This document shows positions 19,024-31,423 of a DNA stretch of 64,000 nucleotides, in pieces. The notes beneath the pieces are model-generated. The model saw nothing but the letters and a program-made list of their open reading frames with translations, ran no database searches and was not told where the DNA came from. A program made the translations under genes and the position numbers. Location: contig JANXWZ010000112.1 of NCBI GenBank assembly GCA_025350865.1, positions 1 to 64,000 on the forward strand, read 5' to 3'. Source of the DNA: Rhodanobacteraceae bacterium (GTDB lineage Bacteria > Acidobacteriota > Terriglobia > Terriglobales > Acidobacteriaceae). Within the stretch, counting starts at the first letter, position 1. Each line of letters opens with the position of its first letter.

Positions 19024-19806
19024 CTAGGAGTGGCTCTTGCTGTGGCGGACTCCGCCCTCGCCGGCGAACCGTGCGCTCGGGTGATCGCTGGCGATGACGC
19101 CATCGCGAATGGTGATGACGCGGTGGGCGAACTCGGCGATGTCGGGCTCGTGGGTGACGACGACAATTGTGTTGCCCTTGGCGTGGAGTTCATCGAACAG
19201 CGCCATGATCTCGTCGCCGGTTTTGGAGTCGAGGTTTCCCGTGGGTTCGTCGGCGAGGATGATGCTGGGGCGGTTGACCAGCGCGCGGGCAATGGCCACG
19301 CGCTGGCGTTGGCCGCCGGAGAGCTCGTTTGGCTTGTGCATCATGCGGGAGCCGAGGTGGACGGATTCCAGGACTTCGGTGGCGCGGGCGATGCGCTCGG
19401 CTGCGGGAGTTCCGTTATAGATGAGGGGCAGTTCGACGTTGTGCAGCGACGACGCGCGGGCCAGCAGGTTGAAGGTCTGGAAGACGAAGCCGATTTCCTT
19501 GTTGCGGATGCGGGCGAGTTCGTCGTCGTTGAGCTCGGAGACGTCGTGGCCGTTGAGCCAGTACTTGCCCTGCGAGGGCGAGTCAAGGCAGCCGATGAGG
19601 TTCATCAAGGTTGATTTGCCGGAACCGGAAGGCCCCATGATAGCGACATACTCATTGTGCTTGATGCGGAGGTTGACGCCGCGCAGAGCGTCGACGCGCT
19701 GGTCGCCCATGTAGTAGGTCTTCCAGAGATCGCTGGTGACGATGACGTCGCCTTCGAGCGGGCCGTCGGCGTTGATGGGGGTCGGATCGAGTTCGGCTAC
19801 GGACAT
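19024..19806 (-). CDS. ABC transporter ATP-binding protein (MacB/LolD type)
   Basis: GPSGSGKST Walker [16 protein letters not shown] signature, [12 protein letters not shown]. Confidence 0.93.
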
Positions 19807-19829
19807 TGGTTCTCCGGTCGGGGCTTGCT

Positions 19830-19870
19830 CCCCACCTGAAACAATAACGCCGTTTGAGATGGGGACCCGA
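19830..19870 (+). repeat. Palindromic element, copy 7
   Basis: ccccacctgaaacaataacgccgtttgagatggggacccga. Confidence 0.75.
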
Positions 19871-19883
19871 TAATTGCTGGTTA

Positions 19884-21296
19884 CTAGGAGCTGGGTGTGT
19901 CGAGGGCGGCGTCAGGCGTGTTATCTGGTTGGACTGTGGTTCCGCTCTTGAGGGTTCTAAGAATCTTGTAGCGGCCCGTGACGATGGTCTGGCCGGGCGT
20001 GAGTCCGCCGGTGACTTCGATGTCCGTGGCACCGGTGACTCCGGTGGTGATGGGAACGAAGGTAGCGCGCTTCTTGCGGTGATCGTCGGTAAGGATGTAG
20101 ACACCCTGAACGAGGACGGGCTTTACCTTGGTCGGCTTGACTGCGGTGGTAGCGACAACCTTCTTCGCCTTGCCGGCGTTAGCGGCTAGTTCCTTCTCGT
20201 CGATCGGGTCTCGCTGCACGATGGCCTGGATGGGGATCGTGAGGACGTTGGTGCGGGTGGCAGTGGTGATCTTCGCCGTTGCAGAGAGACCGGGACGGAG
20301 CGCGTCGTTGTTATCGCCGATATTGTCGATAGTGACGATGACCTTGAAGTCTTTGGCCTCTTCGGTGCCGGTGGTGGACTGGCTGGTGGCGACGCCGGTG
20401 GTGCGGAGAAGAGCCTGGTCCCCCACCTCAGTAACGTGCCCTTTGAAGGTGCGGCCGGGAAGAGCATCAACGGTGACATCGGCGGGTTGGCCTAGCTTGA
20501 CGCTGACGATGTCAGTCTCGTCGACCTTCACCTCGGCGGTGATGACGGACATGTCGGCGAGCGTCATAAGGGTCGAACCCTGGGCGTTCTGGATGCCAGT
20601 GACCATGGTCTCGCCCTCGCGGACGGGAACGTTGGTGACGAGCCCATCGAATGGCGCGCGGGAGATCGTCTTGTCGAGGGCGTCGAAGTTGGCGCGCTGG
20701 CTGGCGACTGCCTGCTCGACGTGGCCGCGCTGGGAGTTGGTCTGGGCCTGAGCCTGAGCGAGGGCGGCCTGGCGCTGATCGAGCGTGGCGGCTGCAACAT
20801 CGTAGGCGGCTCTTTTGGAGTCGAAGTCCTGCTTGGCGATCAGCTTTTCGTCGTAGAGCGATTTGGAGCGATCGTAGTCGAGTTTCTTCTGTTCGAGGTC
20901 GGCCTTGGCCTGGGCGATGTTGGCCTTGGCGGTCGCCTCGGCGGCTTGATAGGAGGTAATGTCCGTGCGCGATGCGGCGATGCTTGCAGTCTGAGCCGCG
21001 ACGGTGGCGCTGGGCTGAACGTTTTCGAGGGTGGCGAGAACGGTACCCTGTTTGACGTGATCGCCTTCCTTTACGTTCAGGTGAGTGATCCGGCCGAAGG
21101 CGGTGGCGCCGATGTTGACGTAGGTCTTGGGCTTGATCTGCCCGGTTCCGCTGACCACGGAGATGAGATCCTGGTTGGCAATGGTCGCGGTGGTGACCTT
21201 GATGACCTTTCCCTGGCTATAGAGCACGGTGCCGACCGCGGCACCGACGAGGACCAGCACGATGGCTACGATGATCAGGATTTTCTTGACGTTCAT
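19884..21296 (-). CDS. Periplasmic adaptor subunit (HlyD/MacA type)
   Basis: N-terminal [29 protein letters not shown] biotinyl-lipoyl-like half, long coiled coil; adjacent to ABC ATPase. Confidence 0.88.
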
Positions 21297-21706
21297 GAAT
21301 GTCTTCTCTGGCCTTTGGCTAAGCTATTTCGATGTTGCAGGTGCTGATTTGAGCCGAATTTCTTTTAGTCCGGCACCCCGAATCAGGGTTGGGGCTGAAT
21401 GGTGTCAAGAGTAGTACGCGCGGGCTCGGTCTAATGTTCCAAAAACAGTACCTGAAATCCAAATTTATTTTTTGCGATTTCCGCTACCGGAAGAGTACCT
21501 TCGCCCGGTTGCAAGAGTCGAAATGGCACATAGGATACCTACGACACATCGACAGGGGCATTTTTGTGGCTGCAAGTCTTTGCAAGAGCCGATGATAGCA
21601 GCACCCAAATAGGTTCCAAAGTGTTTCTCACAAGGGTCTCAATGGGTTTGAATGTTGCATGAATTCGGCCTACAATCAGGGTTTAGCAGGAGCAGGGGAA
21701 TTACCG

Positions 21707-23449
21707 ATGAATGACCGCCGTTTGACAATCCGTTTGGGTGTTTTGAGCGCAGCCGTTGTGGCCTTTTGTTTCGCGCCAGGTTTGGTGGGCAAGAGTGCGT
21801 CGGCACAGGATGGCGTGACACGGACACCGGTAGTGGAAGACAAGCCCGACCCGACCAAGCGCCGGATGACGGACAAGGAACGGATCCAGGTCAACAAAGC
21901 CATGAAGGATGAGCTTAAGGGCTCGTACAAGACGTGGGTCGACCAGGATGTTCGCTGGATTATTTCGGACGAAGAACTTTCGGCGTTCAAACACCTATCG
22001 AACGATCTGGAGCGCGACCAATTTATCGAAAACTTCTGGCTGCGACGGAATCCGAACCCAGAGTCTCCGGAGAATGAGTACCGCGAAGAGCATTATTCGC
22101 GCATTGCCTATGCCAACGAGCATTTTGCGGCCGGCAAATCAGGCTGGCGGACAGACCGTGGGCATATCTATATCGCTTACGGCAAGCCGGACAACATCGA
22201 TTCGCACCCCAGCGGCGGCAGCTACGACCGTCCGATGGAAGAGGGCGGCGGCAATACATCGACGTTTCCGTTCGAGATTTGGCATTACCGCTATCTGGAT
22301 GGGATCGGCGACAACATCGACATCGAGTTTGTCGATACCTGCATGTGCGGCGACTACCACATGACCATTGACCGCTCTGAAAAGGATGCCCTCAAGATGA
22401 CGCCGGGTGCCGGGCTAACTATGTCCGAGCAGATGGGTCAGTCGACCAAGGCGGACCGCTTTTCTGGCGGGGGACTGGAGCAGCTGGGCAAGGGGCCGGG
22501 GACTGAGCAGAACGCTTCGAAGCAGTTCGACCGTCTGGATCGCTTCGCAAAGCTGATGGCGCCGCCGGTAATCAAGTTCAAGGATCTTGAGGCGTACATG
22601 GTTTCGTCGAAGATACTGACGGGCCCGCCATTCCTGTTCGACGTTCGTACCGACTACGTAAAGATCACGAACGACACGGTGCTCGTTCCGCTGACTCTAC
22701 AGATTTACAACAAGGACATCACCTTTAATACGAAGGACGGGGTTTCGGCGGGAACGGTCAATATTCTGGGACGGGTTTCAAACCTGACGGGACGTCCCCT
22801 GTTCACGTTTGAGGAAACCGTTTCAGCCACGTCGCCAAGCGAATTGCTAGCGCAGGAGCAGCAGAAGCGGTCTGTGTACTGGAAGGCTTTGCCGTTGTCC
22901 CCTGGTCTGTACAAGGTCGACATCGTAGTCAAGGATGTGAACAATCCGGATCACGTTGGCACATGGCGGCGCAGCATCAACGTGCCCAAGTTCGATGACG
23001 ACCAGTTGGCCCACTCGTCGCTCATTCTGGCGGACGTGATGGAGCGCGTTCCGTCAAAGGATATTGGTGCGGGCAATTTTGTGATTGGGAATACCCGGAT
23101 TCGGCCCCGCGTTTCGGCCAGCCAGGCAATCCCGATTACATTCCACCGCAGCCAGAATTTGAATTTCTGGATGCAGGTTTACAATTTGGGAATCGACGAG
23201 AAGAACAAGCAGAATGGGGCTACGATCGAGTACACGATCAAGGATTTGTCCAAGTCGGACGACAAGGCTGTGATTTTCACGGCTTCGGAGACGACGACTA
23301 AGTTGAGCCCGAACGCTGATCAGGTAACGCTAGAGAAGAGCCTGCCCCTGGCAAGCCTTCAGCCGGGCAAGTATTCGGTCAGCATCACGGTCAACGACGG
23401 CGTGAAGAAGCAGCAGTTTGCCGCAAGCGCGCCGTTTATTGTGGATTAG
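21707..23449 (+). CDS. GWxTD domain-containing secreted protein
   Basis: Signal peptide; SGWRTDRGHIYIAYGKPDNID motif. Confidence 0.85.
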   Translation: MNDRRLTIRLGVLSAAVVAFCFAPGLVGKSASAQDGVTRTPVVEDKPDPTKRRMTDKERIQVNKAMKDELKGSYKTWVDQDVRWIISDEELSAFKHLSNDLERDQFIENFWLRRNPNPESPENEYREEHYSRIAYANEHFAAGKSGWRTDRGHIYIAYGKPDNIDSHPSGGSYDRPMEEGGGNTSTFPFEIWHYRYLDGIGDNIDIEFVDTCMCGDYHMTIDRSEKDALKMTPGAGLTMSEQMGQSTKADRFSGGGLEQLGKGPGTEQNASKQFDRLDRFAKLMAPPVIKFKDLEAYMVSSKILTGPPFLFDVRTDYVKITNDTVLVPLTLQIYNKDITFNTKDGVSAGTVNILGRVSNLTGRPLFTFEETVSATSPSELLAQEQQKRSVYWKALPLSPGLYKVDIVVKDVNNPDHVGTWRRSINVPKFDDDQLAHSSLILADVMERVPSKDIGAGNFVIGNTRIRPRVSASQAIPITFHRSQNLNFWMQVYNLGIDEKNKQNGATIEYTIKDLSKSDDKAVIFTASETTTKLSPNADQVTLEKSLPLASLQPGKYSVSITVNDGVKKQQFAASAPFIVD

Positions 23450-23549
23450 TCGATTGTTGCAGCGGGACTTGTAGGATATTGGCGGCACGGACACGCGGAA
23501 GCTAAGCGATGGACGGTCATCAGCGAGAACCGAATTTCAAAGGCAGGCC

Positions 23550-25328
23550 GTGGGCGCACCGAGGAATAGTGTGCAGCGATCCCAGGTAACACGTACTCAA
23601 TCCGGCTTTGCCGCGCTGCTCCTGGTGGGGATTGCGCTGCTTGGCGTGCCGGCAGCGCAGGCGGATGGCGGTGCCGTGGTCTCCGGTGTGGTGCGGGATT
23701 CACAGGGCGTAGCCCAGATGGGTGCATTGGTACAGATTCTGGCGGCGAATTCAGCTACGGTTGCGACGGCGTTTACTGATTCGCATGGCCGGTACATGAT
23801 TGCCAACCTGAATACGGGACGTTATCTGGTTCGGGCGAGCGCGACGCTATTTGTTCCGGCGACGAAGGCTAATTTACAGTTGCGGACTGGCGTCTCGACG
23901 GTCGTGAACCTCACGTTGGGGGCGCTGTTCGACAAGACGCAGTGGCTGCCAGCGGAGCGTCGCCGGGCAGACGAGCCGGAGGACGACTGGAAGTGGACGC
24001 TCCGGTCGGCGGCAAATCGGCCTATTTTGCGGATTGTCGAAGATGGAACGCTTCTTGAGGTTTCCACCAGCGCAAGTGAACGCACTCCGGCGGAGAAGAC
24101 CCGCGCTCGTGCCTCGGTGACGAGTGGCGATGGCGAGTTCGGGGCGGGTGGGACGCATAACATTTTGTCGATTCACCGGTCGCTCGATGGCGGTGGCGAT
24201 ATGACGTTCCGGATGGACACGGGATTGACGCGAGTGCCGTCGGCGTCGGGGCCATCGCAGCAGTTTGAAGCGGGGCTGGAGCAGCGGCAGGGGTTCGACG
24301 GAGCGGCGCGAACGGTGGTGAGTTACCGCTTGCATCCGGAGCTGATGGCCGCCGGGATGCCCACTGGAATGCAGTCGTTTTCTATGACCAGCGCCCAGCG
24401 GATGAGCCTGGGCGAGCTGTTGGAGATCGAAGCCGGCGGAAATCTCGAGGCGATCAACGCGGCGGGGCCGCTGGCCGGGATGACGGCGCTGTCGGCGCAT
24501 CCTTTTGTCCGGCTCACATCGCATCCGATGGGCGTTTGGACGCTGCACTACCGCATGGCAACCGACCGGAATGTCCAGGGCTTCGAGGACGTAACCACCG
24601 GGCAAAGCGACGTTCCGGTGGCGACGGTGAAGAACGGCAAGCTGGCTCTTGAGAGGGGACGCCACCAAGAACTAGCGGTGGAACGCAAGGCAGGTCGCGG
24701 TACGGTGTCGATGGCGGTTTATCGGGATGCGATTGCGCTGATGGCCGTGGCGGGCGGCGGATCGACTGGGCCGGGCGAGACCATCGCAAGCCAGATTCCG
24801 GCTGGGATGCTGGTCGATCCGACGACGGGAAGCTTCCGCGCTCTGGCGACGGGATATACGACCAACGGGATGCGCATGACGGTAAGCGCGCCGCTGATCG
24901 ATGGACTGTGGGTCGCGGCGGAGTACAGCACGGGTGACGCGATGGCATCGGAGACGGGTCCTAATGCCGGATTTGCTGAGGCGCTGGCAGGTTTGGATCC
25001 GCAGCGTTCGGAGTCGGCGACGATTGCGCTGAAGGGCAGAATCAAGGGTTTGGGCACCAGGATTCGGAGTTCGTACCGCTGGCAGCCCTCGAAGCTTGTG
25101 ACTGCTGTGGACCCGTACAGCTCATTCAGCGACCAGGGTTTCCTGAGCTTTCAGATTCGCCAGCCGATTCACTGGGGGATGCGGTTGCCGCGTGGGTTGG
25201 ACGCGACGATCGACGTGACGAACCTGCTGGCGCAGGGGTATCGACCGTTTCTGTCGGCGGATGGGCAGACGCTGTACTTTGCGCAGGCCCCGCGGACGGT
25301 TCAGGGCGGGCTGTCGTTCTCGTTCTAA
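23550..25328 (+). CDS. Carboxypeptidase-regulatory-like domain + TonB-dependent-receptor-like beta barrel
   Basis: GVVRDSQGVAQMGALVQI...TDSHGRYMIANLNTGRYLVRASA (CarboxypepD_reg-like), then beta-rich repeats ending in GGLSFSF (C-terminal Phe). Confidence 0.65.
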   Translation: MGAPRNSVQRSQVTRTQSGFAALLLVGIALLGVPAAQADGGAVVSGVVRDSQGVAQMGALVQILAANSATVATAFTDSHGRYMIANLNTGRYLVRASATLFVPATKANLQLRTGVSTVVNLTLGALFDKTQWLPAERRRADEPEDDWKWTLRSAANRPILRIVEDGTLLEVSTSASERTPAEKTRARASVTSGDGEFGAGGTHNILSIHRSLDGGGDMTFRMDTGLTRVPSASGPSQQFEAGLEQRQGFDGAARTVVSYRLHPELMAAGMPTGMQSFSMTSAQRMSLGELLEIEAGGNLEAINAAGPLAGMTALSAHPFVRLTSHPMGVWTLHYRMATDRNVQGFEDVTTGQSDVPVATVKNGKLALERGRHQELAVERKAGRGTVSMAVYRDAIALMAVAGGGSTGPGETIASQIPAGMLVDPTTGSFRALATGYTTNGMRMTVSAPLIDGLWVAAEYSTGDAMASETGPNAGFAEALAGLDPQRSESATIALKGRIKGLGTRIRSSYRWQPSKLVTAVDPYSSFSDQGFLSFQIRQPIHWGMRLPRGLDATIDVTNLLAQGYRPFLSADGQTLYFAQAPRTVQGGLSFSF

Positions 25329-25435: not shown

Positions 25436-26317
25436 TCAGTTGATGTGTTGCGCGAGGTAGGTGCTGATTTTGGCGGCTCCGTCGGCGCCTACGTGGAAAC
25501 AGTCGACGTAGTTGTCAGGGTTGGCGCGGAAGGTCTCGAATTCGCTACTGCTGAGGTCAATGGTGGCGGCTTGTGGCAGGATCGGCTGCATTTTTCGCTG
25601 GTACGCGGCAAATTCGGCGGCGTTGAGCAATCGGCATGGCTCGTAGAGGGCCGGGATGACGTAGACGATGCGGGCTCCGTTGGCTTGGAGCGACTCGACC
25701 ATGTGGGTGTAGTCAGCGACGGCAACGGGATCGACATCGAAGTAGCTGGCCGTGAAATGCGCGATATCGAATCTCTGGCCCGAGCCTTTGAGTGGAGTGG
25801 CACCGTTTGGGGCGCTGGCATTCGCGATGGGGCGGTGAAGCGCGGCGAGAATCTGAGCTGCCTCCTCAATGTAGAGGTGAATACTGCCGAGGGCCTCAGC
25901 GGTTGTGACTGCGTCCAGCCCATCGTTCATGGTGTGATTGGTGGTCATGGTGGGGTAGAGAATACAGATGGCAAGCTTGAAGTGGCCGCGCGATAGCGCC
26001 TGATCAACGATGCGCTTCTCTTCGGTGACGTTGGCGCCGAGGGTAGACTCGTTGTACATGGTGACGCCGGGGATCGATGCTGGATCCCAGTTCTCGCTGG
26101 AAGACGGGCCGATGAGTAGCGCGTCGAAGTTGGCCGGGACGTATCGCTTGCTGAGTAGGAATTTAGCTTTACGGGCGGCGAAGACGACTTGAAGCTTGCG
26201 ACCGCGTGGATCGCGGAAGATGCCATATGGGTCCAGCGCGATGGCGGCGGCGAAGTTGACGCAGAGCACAAGCGCGATGGCGGCGAGAACTCTGCTAATC
26301 CAGGTGCGGCTGGTCAT
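25436..26317 (-). CDS. SGNH/GDSL-like (AlgX/DltD-like) membrane-anchored protein, last gene of MBOAT operon
   Basis: N-terminal TM; LLIGPSSSENWDP (block I-like) and YVDCFHVGADGAAKIS (DxxH-like block V); overlaps the VOC gene by 23 nt. Confidence 0.6.
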   Translation of the reverse strand: MTSRTWISRVLAAIALVLCVNFAAAIALDPYGIFRDPRGRKLQVVFAARKAKFLLSKRYVPANFDALLIGPSSSENWDPASIPGVTMYNESTLGANVTEEKRIVDQALSRGHFKLAICILYPTMTTNHTMNDGLDAVTTAEALGSIHLYIEEAAQILAALHRPIANASAPNGATPLKGSGQRFDIAHFTASYFDVDPVAVADYTHMVESLQANGARIVYVIPALYEPCRLLNAAEFAAYQRKMQPILPQAATIDLSSSEFETFRANPDNYVDCFHVGADGAAKISTYLAQHIN

Positions 26318-26804
26318 CGAGATCCTTTAGCGAGACGCTGTTCTCTTTATTATCGCTGATCAAAAGTGGCTTGCAGAGGTCGGTGAGGTCGCGACGCTCG
26401 ACGAGTTCGACCAGCAGGGAAGCCTCATCCATGAGCCAGCAGATGCGACGACCCTGAAATGCCAAGGCTGGAGTGGGTTGCGAAATCAGGACCATGCCAT
26501 TGGCCTCAAGGTGGGGAAGCGTGTCTTCCAGGCAGTCGACGGCGTAACAAAGGTGGTGGAGCTTGCCACCGCGACGGACGGCGTTGGCGAGCTTGCTGGT
26601 CGGGCTATCCGGTGCGACGAGCTCCAGGTAAGCGCTGTCGCCCGGAAGCTGGAGGAACTGGATCTTCGCGGTCTGCGCCGGGTCGTGGATGATTGGGCTG
26701 ACGATCCGATAGCCGTAACGATCGACGTATTGCTGGGCTACGGGTGGGATCTCGGGGACGGCGTAGCCGACGTGATGGAGACTGAGACGTATCGGGTCGC
26801 TCAT
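26295..26804 (-). CDS. VOC family protein (glyoxalase / methylmalonyl-CoA epimerase-like)
   Basis: MSDPIRLSLHHVGYAVPEIPPVAQQYVDRYGYRIV...AYLELVAP...KLHHLCYAVD...LLVELVE. ATG at 26804 forms TGATG with the MBOAT stop. Confidence 0.85.
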   Translation of the reverse strand: MSDPIRLSLHHVGYAVPEIPPVAQQYVDRYGYRIVSPIIHDPAQTAKIQFLQLPGDSAYLELVAPDSPTSKLANAVRRGGKLHHLCYAVDCLEDTLPHLEANGMVLISQPTPALAFQGRRICWLMDEASLLVELVERRDLTDLCKPLLISDNKENSVSLKDLDDQPHLD

Positions 26805-28264
26805 CAAAAGGCGAAGTAGACGAAGGGTTTGGACATGCTGGAGTTGAGGAAGACCAGCGCGACCAGGGCGAAGACGCAGGTCGCGACAAGGTTCAACGTG
26901 GCGGGTTTGAAATTCTGGGCGAGGGCCTCGGAGGATTTGTCGAAGAAGGCAGCGGCGACACCCGCAATCTGGGCGAGCACGTATACCGCGACCATAATGC
27001 CGGCACCGTTCATCTGCACCAGGTTGGCGGTGCTGAACGGGTGGCGCAGGCTGACAAGGTGCGGCAGGTACGCCAAAGCGACGGGCAGCGTGCCGGCGCG
27101 GAAGAACACGAAGGCCAGGTCGACGACCGCGAGCGTGAGGAACCAGCAGATGGGGTCGGGAAGTTCGAAGGACTTCTTGCCCTTTTTCTTTTTGAACTGC
27201 TTCTTCCAGATCTGGTTGATGACCAGTGCCACGCCGTGGATGAAGCCGAAGATGACGAAGGTCCAACTTGGCCCGTGCCACAGGCCAGCGATGGACATAG
27301 CCAGCAGGGTGGCAACTCCGCTGGTGACTAGCGTGGCGCGGCTGAACGTTTTGAGGATGGGTGTGTAGAGGTAGGCCGTGATGAACTCGGACAGGGAGAT
27401 GTGCCAACGTGTCCAGAACTCGGAGATGGAGGTGGCGCGGAGAGGCGCATCGAAGTTGCGCGGGATGTCGATGCCGAGGAAGAGGGCGGAGGCGATTGCC
27501 ATGTCGGAGTAGCCGCTGAAGTCGAAGTAGATCTGGAGCGTGTAACAGGAGACGAAGACCCAGGCTTCGAGGGCGGACATGTTGCGGGCGGAGTCGAAGC
27601 CGAAGTCGGCGGCCTGCGAGAAGGCGTCGGCTACGACCACCTTCTTGATGAGGCCAATGGAGAAGAGGTATAAGGCTCGGGCGACCGTGTCGGCCGAAGG
27701 GCCGGCGGTGGCGTTGAGCGTGGGGAACTGGTGCAGGATGCGGCGGGCCTTGGCGATGGGGCCGGAGATGACGTAGGGAAAGAAGCTGACGAAGGTGGCG
27801 TGGTCGAACAGACCGCTGGGAGGGGCGACCTCCTGGTATACGTCCACGAGGTACATGATCTGCGCGAGGGTGAAGAAGCTGATGCCGAGCGGGAAGGCGA
27901 GATCGGGAAGCCGGATGTGGTGCGCGGCAAAATAAGGGATGCTCGTCAGCAGGAAGTTGACGTATTTGAAGACGCAGAGGAAGCCAATGTTGAGGAGGAA
28001 ACCGAGTTGCAGGAGGCGTTTGCGGGCGCGGGACTCAGGAGTGGCGGCAGACATCCACTGTGAGATCTGCCAGTTGACGACGATGGAGGCGAGCAGGTAA
28101 GCGAGGTTTGCAGGCTTGGCCCAGGAGTAGAAGACCATTGAGGCAACGAAGACCACAAGTTGAGGGGCGCGGGGGATACGGAGCTTGCGGGCGATGGCGA
28201 CGAGCAGAAGTGTAGCAGGGAGGAAAACGAGCAGGAACGGGAACGAGTTGAAGTTCATCAGCAA
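26804..28264 (-). CDS. MBOAT family O-acyltransferase (AlgI/DltB-like)
   Basis: MNFNSFPFLLVFLPATLL, DLAFPLGISFFTLAQIMYLVDVY, YFDFSGYSDMAIA, FWTRWHISLSEF, AGLWHGPSWTFVIFG (conserved His). Confidence 0.93.
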   Translation of the reverse strand: MLMNFNSFPFLLVFLPATLLLVAIARKLRIPRAPQLVVFVASMVFYSWAKPANLAYLLASIVVNWQISQWMSAATPESRARKRLLQLGFLLNIGFLCVFKYVNFLLTSIPYFAAHHIRLPDLAFPLGISFFTLAQIMYLVDVYQEVAPPSGLFDHATFVSFFPYVISGPIAKARRILHQFPTLNATAGPSADTVARALYLFSIGLIKKVVVADAFSQAADFGFDSARNMSALEAWVFVSCYTLQIYFDFSGYSDMAIASALFLGIDIPRNFDAPLRATSISEFWTRWHISLSEFITAYLYTPILKTFSRATLVTSGVATLLAMSIAGLWHGPSWTFVIFGFIHGVALVINQIWKKQFKKKKGKKSFELPDPICWFLTLAVVDLAFVFFRAGTLPVALAYLPHLVSLRHPFSTANLVQMNGAGIMVAVYVLAQIAGVAAAFFDKSSEALAQNFKPATLNLVATCVFALVALVFLNSSMSKPFVYFAF

Positions 28265-28995
28265 CTTGCCCCGGCGGTGATGGGCAGGTCGGCGCCGTTG
28301 ATGTAGCTGGCCTGCGGCGAGAGCAGGAACTCGATTGCGCCGATGACGTCGTCGGTGGTGGCGTTGCGTCCCTGTGGATTAGCTCCGGCGGCCATGCGCA
28401 CGGCAACGTCCCCGATCTCTTCGAGGAACTGCGTTTCGATCATGCTGGGGGAGACGGCGTTCACCGTGAGTTTTGAGGCCGCGTACTCGGCGGCGGTGGC
28501 TCGCATCAGGCCGAGCTGCGCGTACTTGATCACTGTGTACATCGACATGTATTTGGGCGGCATGCCGTGGGTGACGGAGGAGGTGACGAAGACCAGGCGG
28601 GCGGCCTCGGACTTGCTCATTTTCGCGGCGAACTTTTGCAGCAGGATGACGATGGATTCAACCTGGATGGCCATGTCGCGGCGGAAGTGGTCGAGCTTGA
28701 ACTTGGTGAGGCGCTCGTACTTCAGGCGGAGCGCGGGAAGATGGATGATCTGGGTAGGGAAGGTGAATTTTGCGGCGATCTCGTCTGCCATGGCGGTGAC
28801 GGAGGCTGCATCGGAGAAGTCGGCTGTTACGGGGTAGACCCTGTCGCCGAACTCGGACTGAAGGGCTTCAATGCGAGCGCCGCCGGAGTACGAGTGGGCG
28901 ATGAGGGTAAGGTCTCGTCCGGAGGCGAGCAAACGGCGGGCCAATGCGATGCCAAGGTCCGAGGAGCAGCCGGTAATCAATACGGTTTCAGTCAT
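28258..28995 (-). CDS. SDR family oxidoreductase
   Basis: VLITGCSSDLGIALARRLL Rossmann motif; Tyr-x3-Lys in YMSMYTVIKYAQ; 3-oxoacyl-ACP reductase-like. Confidence 0.88.
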   Translation of the reverse strand: MTETVLITGCSSDLGIALARRLLASGRDLTLIAHSYSGGARIEALQSEFGDRVYPVTADFSDAASVTAMADEIAAKFTFPTQIIHLPALRLKYERLTKFKLDHFRRDMAIQVESIVILLQKFAAKMSKSEAARLVFVTSSVTHGMPPKYMSMYTVIKYAQLGLMRATAAEYAASKLTVNAVSPSMIETQFLEEIGDVAVRMAAGANPQGRNATTDDVIGAIEFLLSPQASYINGADLPITAGASC

Positions 28996-29404
28996 GCATG
29001 CCTGCCCGGATGAGAGCTTTGGAGATGAGTTTGCCGTGTTGGTTGCGGATGCTGGCTTTGATCTCCATCTGGCGAAGTGCCCCGCCCATGAAGATGATTT
29101 CGCCGGTGCAGGTGAGCGTGTCGCCGACGAAGGTGGGGTGATGGAAGTTGATATCCATCCCCTGCAGCAAGGCGTATTTGCCGGGAATGTAGACGCCGAC
29201 GAGCTGCGAGTAGAGGGAGGACGACATCATGCCGAAGATGACAGGCGAAGGAAAGCCAGCGGCGACGGCGTAGTCTGCGTCGACGTGCAGTGGGTTGATG
29301 TCGCCGGAGAGGCGAGCGAAGTCAGCGACCATCTCGCTGGTGAAGGTCGCGTCGAAGGAGTGTTTCAAGCCGACGGAGAGATCGTCCCAGCGGTATTCGT
29401 TCAT
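28988..29404 (-). CDS. MaoC-like (R)-specific enoyl hydratase/dehydratase-fold protein
   Basis: MVADFARLSGDINPLHVDADYAVAAGFPSPVIFGMMSSSL hydratase-2 motif. Confidence 0.88.
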   Translation of the reverse strand: MNEYRWDDLSVGLKHSFDATFTSEMVADFARLSGDINPLHVDADYAVAAGFPSPVIFGMMSSSLYSQLVGVYIPGKYALLQGMDINFHHPTFVGDTLTCTGEIIFMGGALRQMEIKASIRNQHGKLISKALIRAGMHD

Positions 29405-29643
29405 TTCGCCGCGAGCTTCTTCTGGATGAGATCGATCATGTCGCCGACGTTCTTGAGCTCCTGGAGCTCGCCGAGAGCGAAGCGGACTTTATAGCGCTTT
29501 TCGATAGCGGTGACGAGGTTGGTGTGGGTCAGCGAGTCCCAGTCGTCAATGGTGGCGGCGCTGGATTCGCGGGTGAGAACGAGCGAATCGTCGTCGAAGA
29601 TGTCGCGGAAGATTTCTTGCAGTTCGGCTAGCAGATTATCCAT
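29401..29643 (-). CDS. Acyl carrier protein
   Basis: 80 aa; IDDWDSLTHTNLVTAIEKRYKVRF, with DSL phosphopantetheinylation serine. Confidence 0.9.
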   Translation of the reverse strand: MDNLLAELQEIFRDIFDDDSLVLTRESSAATIDDWDSLTHTNLVTAIEKRYKVRFALGELQELKNVGDMIDLIQKKLAAK

Positions 29644-31423
29644 GAACGGGCTCCAGAATGCGGATGTGTCGGGTGCGTGGCTGATAGGACGGGACGTCGA
29701 GCGACCAGACGGTGGAGGTGGTGGCTTCTTCAGTGGTGACGAGGGTGAAGCCCAGCTTCTCGTAGTGGTCCTGCACCATGCCGTTTTTGGGAGTGGGAAT
29801 GTAGTAGCCGAGAATGGTGCGGATTCCGCGGTCTTTGGCGCGCGCGACGAGGCCGTCCAGCATGGCGACTTCCATGTCGCGCTTGAGGACGCGGCATGAC
29901 ATCAACCAGAGGTCCATGTGGAGGGTGTCGGCGGTCTGATGGCCGAGGACGACGGAGATGAGGCCGTTATCGCCGAACCGGTCCGTGAGCTTGCCGTAGA
30001 GACCAATGTGGTTGCCGTCGGTGACGGTCGACTCGATCTCTGCGAGGGTGTAGCGGCGGGTAGTGAGGTTGAACTGGTTGGTCTTGTTGGTGAGCTGTGC
30101 GATCCGCTCCATGTAGGTGGAGTTGAAGGCGTCGATTTCAGCTGACATTTCGAGTGAATCGAGGTACTCGCCGTAGTTCGCGAACTTCTGTTCGAGCTTC
30201 GCGCGCTCGGCGTTCTCTTCGTAGAGTTTGGCGCGGCTGAGGTCTTCCTTGCCGAGGGTGATGAGCTCGAAGTAGCGGCCGGCGTCGACGATAGACGCAT
30301 ACTTGGCGACTTCGTTGCCTACGTCGGGGACGGCGATCCCCGCGATCTGGGATTCGACGATACTGCGCTCGGCAGGATTGTCGTCGACGAAGACGAAGGA
30401 GTCTGGGCCCAGGTTCAGCTCGCGAGCGATGGTGAGGATGTTCTCGTGCTTGGGGTCCCAGTTGGCCTTGAATGCGGAGAAGTGCTCGAGCTTCAGGATT
30501 GAATCGGGGTGTTCGAAGCCCTGCTTCGCGATCTCTTCGTTGTTTTTCGAGCAGACGGCGAGCAGGATGCCGCGTTCGCGCAGGGAGAGGCAGTACTCCT
30601 GGAAGGCGGTGTATGCTTCGGCGACTGGGGTTTCCTTGCCGATGACGATCTTGTCTGCTCCGTCGTCGCCGATGACCCCGCCCCAGAGGGTGTTGTCGAG
30701 GTCCAGAACAAGGACCTTGCGGCTGCGGCCGTAAAGAGCGCGGACGATCGACGCGACGGACGACGCGATGGCGAAGCTGCCCTCGACCGTGTTGGCGTGT
30801 TTGTAGCTGAACCAGCGCTCGGGGTCGAACCAGTTGCTGAGGCCAAGCTGGCCGGAGATGGCGCAGAGGTCCTGGATGATGAGGCGGGGGTTGGAGGCGG
30901 CCTCTACTGCGAACTGGCGATTGAGCTCCAGGATGAAGCGCGACTGGCCACCGGGGCTGACTGAATCGAGATTGCCGAGCGTGGGGTAGGCAGGCAGCTC
31001 GAAGTTGTTCTGGATGATCTGGCAGCCGACCGCGGCTGCGAGCGAAGTCCACATGGCCTTGAAGCGGGAGAGCTCTGCCGCGACGAAGCTGGGGAAGTCT
31101 GCCTCGGTGCAGGCGACGGGCTGGAAGGACTGGACGTTCTGGATGCCGGTGTGGATATAGACGAGGTCGGGTTTGAAGTCTGCGACGATTTCGGGCTCGA
31201 GAACTGCGTCTTCATAGTAGCGGCCGTACTCGGATTGGAAGAAGGTGGGACGGAAACCGCTGTCGAGGAGGAGGATTTCGAGCAGGTCAACGAGCTCGTT
31301 GGTCGTGCTGCCGCCAAGCACCGCAATGCGGATAACTTTCAGGTTTTCGCGTTCAAGTAACTGCTTGCGGATGGACTTTCGCTTGATGAGGAGGCGTTCA
31401 AGTGGGTACTCAGCGATGGTCAT
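29636..31423 (-). CDS. FkbH-like HAD-IIIC protein
   Basis: KVLVLDLDNTLWGGVIGDDG, LLAVCSKNNEEIAKQGFEH, FVFVDDNPAERSIV; SGNH-like N-terminal part; C-terminal acyltransferase-like part. Confidence 0.92.
   Translation of the reverse strand: MTIAEYPLERLLIKRKSIRKQLLERENLKVIRIAVLGGSTTNELVDLLEILLLDSGFRPTFFQSEYGRYYEDAVLEPEIVADFKPDLVYIHTGIQNVQSFQPVACTEADFPSFVAAELSRFKAMWTSLAAAVGCQIIQNNFELPAYPTLGNLDSVSPGGQSRFILELNRQFAVEAASNPRLIIQDLCAISGQLGLSNWFDPERWFSYKHANTVEGSFAIASSVASIVRALYGRSRKVLVLDLDNTLWGGVIGDDGADKIVIGKETPVAEAYTAFQEYCLSLRERGILLAVCSKNNEEIAKQGFEHPDSILKLEHFSAFKANWDPKHENILTIARELNLGPDSFVFVDDNPAERSIVESQIAGIAVPDVGNEVAKYASIVDAGRYFELITLGKEDLSRAKLYEENAERAKLEQKFANYGEYLDSLEMSAEIDAFNSTYMERIAQLTNKTNQFNLTTRRYTLAEIESTVTDGNHIGLYGKLTDRFGDNGLISVVLGHQTADTLHMDLWLMSCRVLKRDMEVAMLDGLVARAKDRGIRTILGYYIPTPKNGMVQDHYEKLGFTLVTTEEATTSTVWSLDVPSYQPRTRHIRILEPVHG

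Follow-up and report, generated by a model that had tools for sequence, protein, structure and literature searches.

The question raised by this locus is what a predicted glyceryl-loading enzyme of the FkbH type is doing in the same operon as a membrane O-acyltransferase. On the minus strand of the window, the whole 64,000-nucleotide stretch of acidobacterial contig JANXWZ010000112.1 that was analysed, a block of seven open reading frames, read from the sequence, occupies positions 25436-31423 in the order FkbH-ACP-MaoC-SDR-MBOAT-VOC-SGNH, where ACP denotes an acyl carrier protein. The reading favoured here, to which a probability of roughly one half is given, is that the operon encodes an ACP-fed surface O-acylation pathway in which FkbH would load the carrier, MaoC, SDR and VOC would tailor the bound acyl group to lactyl, and MBOAT and SGNH would transfer it. 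The gene order of the operon parallels these proposed steps, and the seven genes include no glycosyltransferase, ketosynthase or nonribosomal peptide synthetase (NRPS).

Gene order, overlaps, protein families, conserved catalytic residues and recurring linkage were all observed directly. Neighbouring genes overlap by 8 nt (FkbH/ACP), 4 nt (ACP/MaoC), 8 nt (MaoC/SDR) and 23 nt (VOC/SGNH), and a TGATG junction is found at MBOAT/VOC and also at SDR/MBOAT, where the overlap is 1 nt. The first-pass annotation had reported overlap at every junction, which holds for all seven genes, but the 7 nt that it gave for SDR/MBOAT does not stand. An overlap of that length would need a TTG start at 28264; the MBOAT start is placed at the ATG at 28258 because homologous MBOATs begin M[LN]FNSF. 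From the overlapping genes we infer translational coupling. A promoter scan found nothing.

The first gene (29636..31423, minus strand, as are all seven; 595 aa) encodes a predicted FkbH-type HAD-IIIC glyceryltransferase/phosphatase. The family scan gave 298 bits for TIGR01686 against a cut-off of 147, the solved relative BF1531 was matched at 7e-51, and both the DLDNT at position 241 (the HAD DxDxT motif) and C510 are invariant among the operon homologues in alignment A1. The ACP (29401..29643, 80 aa) scores 23.9 bits for PF00550 (PP-binding; cut-off 20.8), carries Ser37 within DWDSL as its predicted phosphopantetheine site, and adjoins FkbH in nearly all loci compared. The formation of glyceryl-ACP from 1,3-bisphosphoglycerate by FkbH is summarised in PMC7489565, and FkbH-like proteins activate glycerate (PMC4979870). 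By analogy with this enzymology, the window FkbH is predicted to load D-glycerate from 1,3-bisphosphoglycerate onto the ACP, giving D-glyceryl-ACP.

The MaoC-type (R)-hydratase/dehydratase (28988..29404, 138 aa) scores 61 bits for PF01575 (MaoC_dehydratas; cut-off 27), matches the PhaJ structure 1iq6 at 6e-19, and has the hydratase-motif residues D35, N37 and H40 invariant across 17 alignment rows. It is predicted to carry out beta-dehydration of glyceryl-ACP: because the beta-hydroxyl sits next to an acidic alpha-hydrogen, its elimination would give 2-hydroxyacrylyl-ACP, an enol that becomes pyruvyl-ACP after tautomerisation. The FabG-like SDR reductase (28258..28995, 245 aa; 126 bits for PF13561, adh_short_C2, cut-off 27), in which Y153 and K157 are invariant among homologues and S140 nearly so, is predicted to reduce pyruvyl-ACP to lactyl-ACP. 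The VOC-fold protein (26295..26804, 169 aa) scores 67 bits for PF13669 (Glyoxalase_4; cut-off 27) and 43 bits for the methylmalonyl-CoA epimerase model TIGR03081, under its cut-off of 115, and its metal-type residues H9/H10, E60, H83 and E132 (numbered without the initiator Met) are invariant. It is a predicted C2 epimerase of an ACP-bound acid and would invert the alpha carbon of that acid, be it glyceryl or lactyl.

The MBOAT O-acyltransferase (26804..28258, 484 aa) scores 95 bits for PF03062 (cut-off 27) and aligns with the solved DltB structure 6bug at 2.5e-28 over ~250 residues, with both active-site histidine regions retained; H286 and H328 take the places of the DltB active-site residues. 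A structure of this protein predicted without an alignment reached a pLDDT of 42 and was unusable. The last gene (25436..26317, 293 aa) encodes the predicted membrane-anchored SGNH-fold partner of MBOAT, for which family scans gave no Pfam or NCBIfam match. Its AlphaFold2 model (pLDDT 73, pTM 0.68), with an N-terminal helix at residues 3-27, was matched by Foldseek to SGNH hydrolases, DltD and PatB (E about 7.5e-5 to 1.5e-3, modest TM-scores), and DltD was among the best matches at a TM-score of only about 0.3-0.46. The model supports an SGNH fold, and G70, S72, D272 and H275 are invariant among homologues. The residues that mark an MBOAT/SGNH pair, H286/H328 together with S72, D272 and H275, are thus found in one operon, and an SGNH-type or AlgX/DHHW-type gene neighbours MBOAT in many loci. 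In the proposed pathway, MBOAT would bring the acyl group through the membrane and hand it to the SGNH protein. This partner would then form the ester on a hydroxyl group of a polysaccharide, exported or at the cell surface, that genes outside the operon would supply. The earlier suggestion of a short acyl group and an acceptor made elsewhere fits this pathway.

Conservation of the gene set was followed in two collections. All MBOATs and 83 FkbH genes were located in 200 genomes of the class, and for 19 of the 83 an MBOAT lies no more than 3.1 kb away, against ~0.5 expected within 10 kb; one of these 19 linkages (genome G227) comes from fragments that overlap and could be spurious. For the second, independent set, named genomes were scanned with the FkbH alignment, which gave 80 loci, and with the relatives added 86 FkbH loci were compared. 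A recognised ACP is present in 75 of them, MBOAT in 59, MaoC in 30, a window-type SDR in 20 and VOC in 14, in a set that was ranked by FkbH similarity, with relatives fetched via their MBOAT, and is not a random sample. The claim that the genes are conserved together is upheld for a core of FkbH, ACP, MBOAT and an SGNH-type partner, linked both class-wide and across phyla, but not for the exact seven-gene set, which is seen only in the window. What recurs is this core, either with no tailoring gene or with one of two additions, VOC or a MaoC-reductase pair; the reductase of the pair is a separate SDR, a fused SDR or an aldo-keto reductase (AKR).

The order FkbH-ACP-MaoC-SDR-MBOAT recurs in Bryobacterales (L043, with a window-type SGNH), Bacteroidetes (L056), Oscillospiraceae (L069) and Clostridia (L111); an uncultured Helicobacter (L109) has it with an additional ACP. 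The five genes are arranged differently in Myxococcales (L045), in Lachnospiraceae (L073) and in Bdellovibrionales (L113). FkbH-ACP-VOC-MBOAT is found in Lentisphaerae (L053) and Clostridia (L055, L107, L108) and, with a methyltransferase in between, in Pseudodesulfovibrio (L050), and pSymB of S. meliloti has the order VOC-MBOAT-409 aa-ACP-FkbH. Nearer to the window, the best FkbH matches among the named genomes come from uncultured Terriglobus and Granulicella, so that the host is most probably a member of the Acidobacteriaceae. A close MaoC homologue is present in 4 of 10 same-family genomes, in three of these within an FkbH operon; in the fourth (G013), MaoC opens one contig and FkbH-ACP closes another.

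Four operon states were seen within the family: the core (L135 and L136, where FkbH, ACP, MBOAT and SGNH are 68, 64, 60 and 44% identical to those of the window), the core with VOC (L134), the core with MaoC-SDR (L023, which has a different SGNH-like partner), and all of these together (the window). On the FkbH tree, well-supported branches force at least nine label changes for VOC and at least 12 for MaoC, counts that are approximate since this was a quick tree, and the tailoring genes therefore appear to be exchanged freely while FkbH-ACP stays. In a count of 113 FkbH loci, no locus but the window has MaoC and VOC together near FkbH on its strand. A strict mutual exclusion of the two was rejected in favour of a tendency: the window has both, Fisher's test including the window gives p = 0.05, and genome G031 has both functions, unlinked. 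In G031 (L149:7638-14290), a lone VOC lies beside homologues of window positions 19024-25328 (ABC transporter, HlyD, GWxTD and carboxypeptidase-regulatory-like genes), at the place where the window carries the seven-gene operon. In genome G020 (L148:8641-9347), a 3' remnant of ACP is followed by VOC, apparently a decayed FkbH-ACP-VOC operon.

Of the 30 MaoC loci, about 20 have a window-type SDR, four an AKR and two a fused SDR. MaoC-SDR fusions of 459-522 aa are present in the FkbH loci L024, L033, L098 and L123; the SDR half is Pfam-confirmed in L024 and L123 and below cut-off in L033, and L098 is a candidate. The lactyl route is favoured because MaoC seldom occurs without a reductase and because two different MaoC+SDR designs, one of separate genes and one of fusions, accompany FkbH. 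An epimerised glycerate would fit the VOC operons, because VOC, which is related to alpha-carbon epimerases acting beside a thioester, is mostly found in FkbH loci without MaoC. The first-pass annotation had SDR, MaoC and VOC together reshape an unspecified acyl group; with MaoC nearly always accompanied by a reductase and VOC mostly an alternative option, that idea is sharpened, and lactyl and epimerised glyceryl groups are suggested instead. The lactyl product, the role of VOC and the glycan acceptor are thus proposed from chemistry and gene combinations. A similar idea is embodied in the bryostatin loading module, which is FkbH-like and has a proposed D-lactyl starter.

The same gene combinations bear on the best-surviving alternative, in which the same machine makes another product: glycerate (D or L), or a C3 acid that has been oxidised, for example to a 3-oxo or hydroxymalonyl form, with the SDR as oxidase. 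The proposed methoxymalonyl pathway does oxidise glyceryl-ACP at C3, and core-only and VOC-only operons have no lactate route, so glyceryl transfer must be allowed there. For the window operon this alternative is nevertheless the less likely one, as oxidation at C3 gives the dehydratase no role, a reductase accompanies MaoC in most loci, and a single SDR stands against the two dehydrogenases and the methyltransferase of the methoxymalonyl route.

Other additions to FkbH-ACP operons were also observed. FkbH-ACP-MaoC operons of Firmicutes and other metagenome-assembled genomes (L057, L078, L090, L095, L110, and also L067, L076 and L106) encode transketolase as a split pair of about 277+304 aa; an AKR replaces the SDR alongside the pair in L057, L078, L095 and L110. 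S-adenosylmethionine methyltransferases are encoded in FkbH-ACP operons at L050:10021-10995, L113:13477-14400 and L124:10756-11724, making O-methylglyceryl groups possible products. In Lachnospiraceae (L051, L058, L074, L105), FkbH or FkbH-ACP lies immediately upstream of pfkA-, dnaX-, ybaB- and recR-like genes, in a block that has no MBOAT.

As to the destination of the acyl group, homologous cassettes lie within polysaccharide/nonulosonic-acid clusters, with NeuB in L048 and L056 and glycosyltransferase-like genes in L050. Loci that have no MBOAT may carry a GNAT-like protein (L048, L103, L119) or WcbI (L123), and this pairing of the donor cassette with other transferases is consistent with a general acyl-ACP donor. 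In Flavobacterium geliluteum (L048:2445-12867), FkbH-ACP-MaoC-SDR and a GNAT-like protein lie inside a NeuB/NeuC-like cluster, which suggests that the donor cassette may there serve to N-acylate a nonulosonic acid. It is improbable that the window operon makes a lipid or a small secreted molecule which MBOAT/SGNH, as the final acyltransferase, would acylate. FkbH and MBOAT do share secondary-metabolite clusters, those of aeruginosins among them, the window operon has no glycosyltransferase, and some FkbH-ACP units have no MBOAT; however, the block has neither ketosynthase nor NRPS, homologous blocks lie in the glycan clusters of L048, L056 and L050, and an MBOAT paired with an SGNH protein typically serves to acylate glycans outside the cytoplasm.

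Several observations weigh against the proposed surface O-acylation pathway. A close FkbH is present in only 12 of 62 genomes of the genus, and no glycan genes adjoin the window operon in its neighbourhood. No MBOAT lies near FkbH-ACP in G019 (L150) or near FkbH-ACP-MaoC-SDR in G021 (L151), and because neither has a recognised transferase nearby, the donor cassette can have other uses. The chemistry may differ in those MaoC operons that encode the split transketolase, where the C3 unit is perhaps extended. Finally, the window MBOAT scores 198 bits for the DltB equivalog TIGR04091, under the cut-off of 375, and MBOATs without FkbH nearby score 159-170. DltB-likeness thus fails to separate FkbH-linked from unlinked MBOATs, and since sequence alone is no proof of ACP use, the case for it rests on gene linkage. 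The Dlt-like logic proposed earlier, in which FkbH would replace DltA and MBOAT would take the acyl group from the ACP, is supported by that strong and repeated linkage, by the DltB match and by the SGNH fold.

The FkbH proteins of relatives are about 62-68% identical, whereas identity among the linked MBOATs runs from 33 to 60%, a pattern that would arise if a single donor cassette were recombined with different MBOATs. The host genome (4.78 Mb, 246 contigs) encodes five MBOATs, and in the stretches examined around each, FkbH is found only for that of the window. A second FkbH domain of this genome (C198:749-1705, L146), 35% identical, is part of a protein of ~2069 aa that is probably an assembly-line enzyme. 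Ordinary CoA-dependent (acetyl or similar) glycan acylation of the AlgI/AlgX type, with an unconnected function for the adjoining FkbH-ACP-MaoC-SDR, would suit both the frequency of MBOATs without nearby FkbH, including four others in the host, and the DltB-model scores, but is very improbable in the face of the overlapping genes, the apparent recombination of the cassette with MBOATs, and an FkbH-MBOAT linkage far above chance across distant phyla.

No description of FkbH or HAD-IIIC with MBOAT for glycans was found in the open-access literature, subscription journals being mostly uncovered. Gellan carries an L-glyceryl ester, and we know of no general biosynthetic route to glyceryl or lactyl esters on bacterial polysaccharides. 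If the surface O-acylation pathway is correct, the FkbH gene set would be such a route, testable enzyme by enzyme; gene content would predict the acyl group, and surface decoration would be tied to glycolytic flux. The gene set covers abundant gut and soil bacteria. A broader and more tentative proposal is that 1,3-bisphosphoglycerate feeds an ACP donor cassette behind a widespread and so far undescribed modular code, from acidobacteria to gut Clostridia. Its interchangeable tailoring states (no tailoring gene, VOC, or MaoC plus reductase) would set D-glyceryl, L-glyceryl or lactyl esters, respectively, and MBOAT/SGNH or other acyltransferases would place these on glycans.

Among known systems, AlgI/AlgJ/AlgX, Wss and PatA/PatB O-acetylation share with the window operon an MBOAT, an SGNH partner and extracytoplasmic O-acylation; the group added in these systems is acetyl, and they lack an ACP, a loading enzyme and genes for tailoring the acyl. 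The methoxymalonyl-ACP and tetronate 'glycerate-utilisation' operons share FkbH and a stand-alone ACP that yield glyceryl-ACP, but pass the acyl group to polyketide synthases or a FabH-like enzyme, in whose place the window has MBOAT/SGNH. The methoxymalonyl pathway further differs in its two dehydrogenases and O-methyltransferase, against one SDR and no O-methyltransferase here, and the tetronate operon in its FabH-like ketosynthase III, which is absent from the window operon and present beside FkbH and ACP in L127. Aeruginosin, suomilide and varlaxin clusters combine FkbH glycerate loading with an MBOAT, but there FkbH forms one domain of an NRPS and the target of the MBOAT is the peptide product, with no acyl-ACP cassette for a surface glycan. 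Closest is Dlt (DltA-DltB-DltC-DltD), with which the operon shares a dedicated stand-alone ACP (here an 80-aa PP-binding protein overlapping FkbH) and an MBOAT homologous to DltB with the active-site histidine positions retained; its predicted membrane-anchored SGNH protein, with DltD among its nearest folds at the low TM-scores given above, may be a DltD counterpart. The operon differs in that none of its seven genes encodes a DltA-type adenylation enzyme, loading being predicted to proceed via FkbH from a glycolytic acyl phosphate; in its added tailoring enzymes for the carrier-bound acyl; in an MBOAT far under the DltB equivalog cut-off; and in its host, an acidobacterium and not a teichoic-acid Gram-positive. 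Lacking a DltA, and with an MBOAT that falls short of the DltB cut-off, the operon is not classed as Dlt, yet by analogy it would work like Dlt, with FkbH standing in for DltA.

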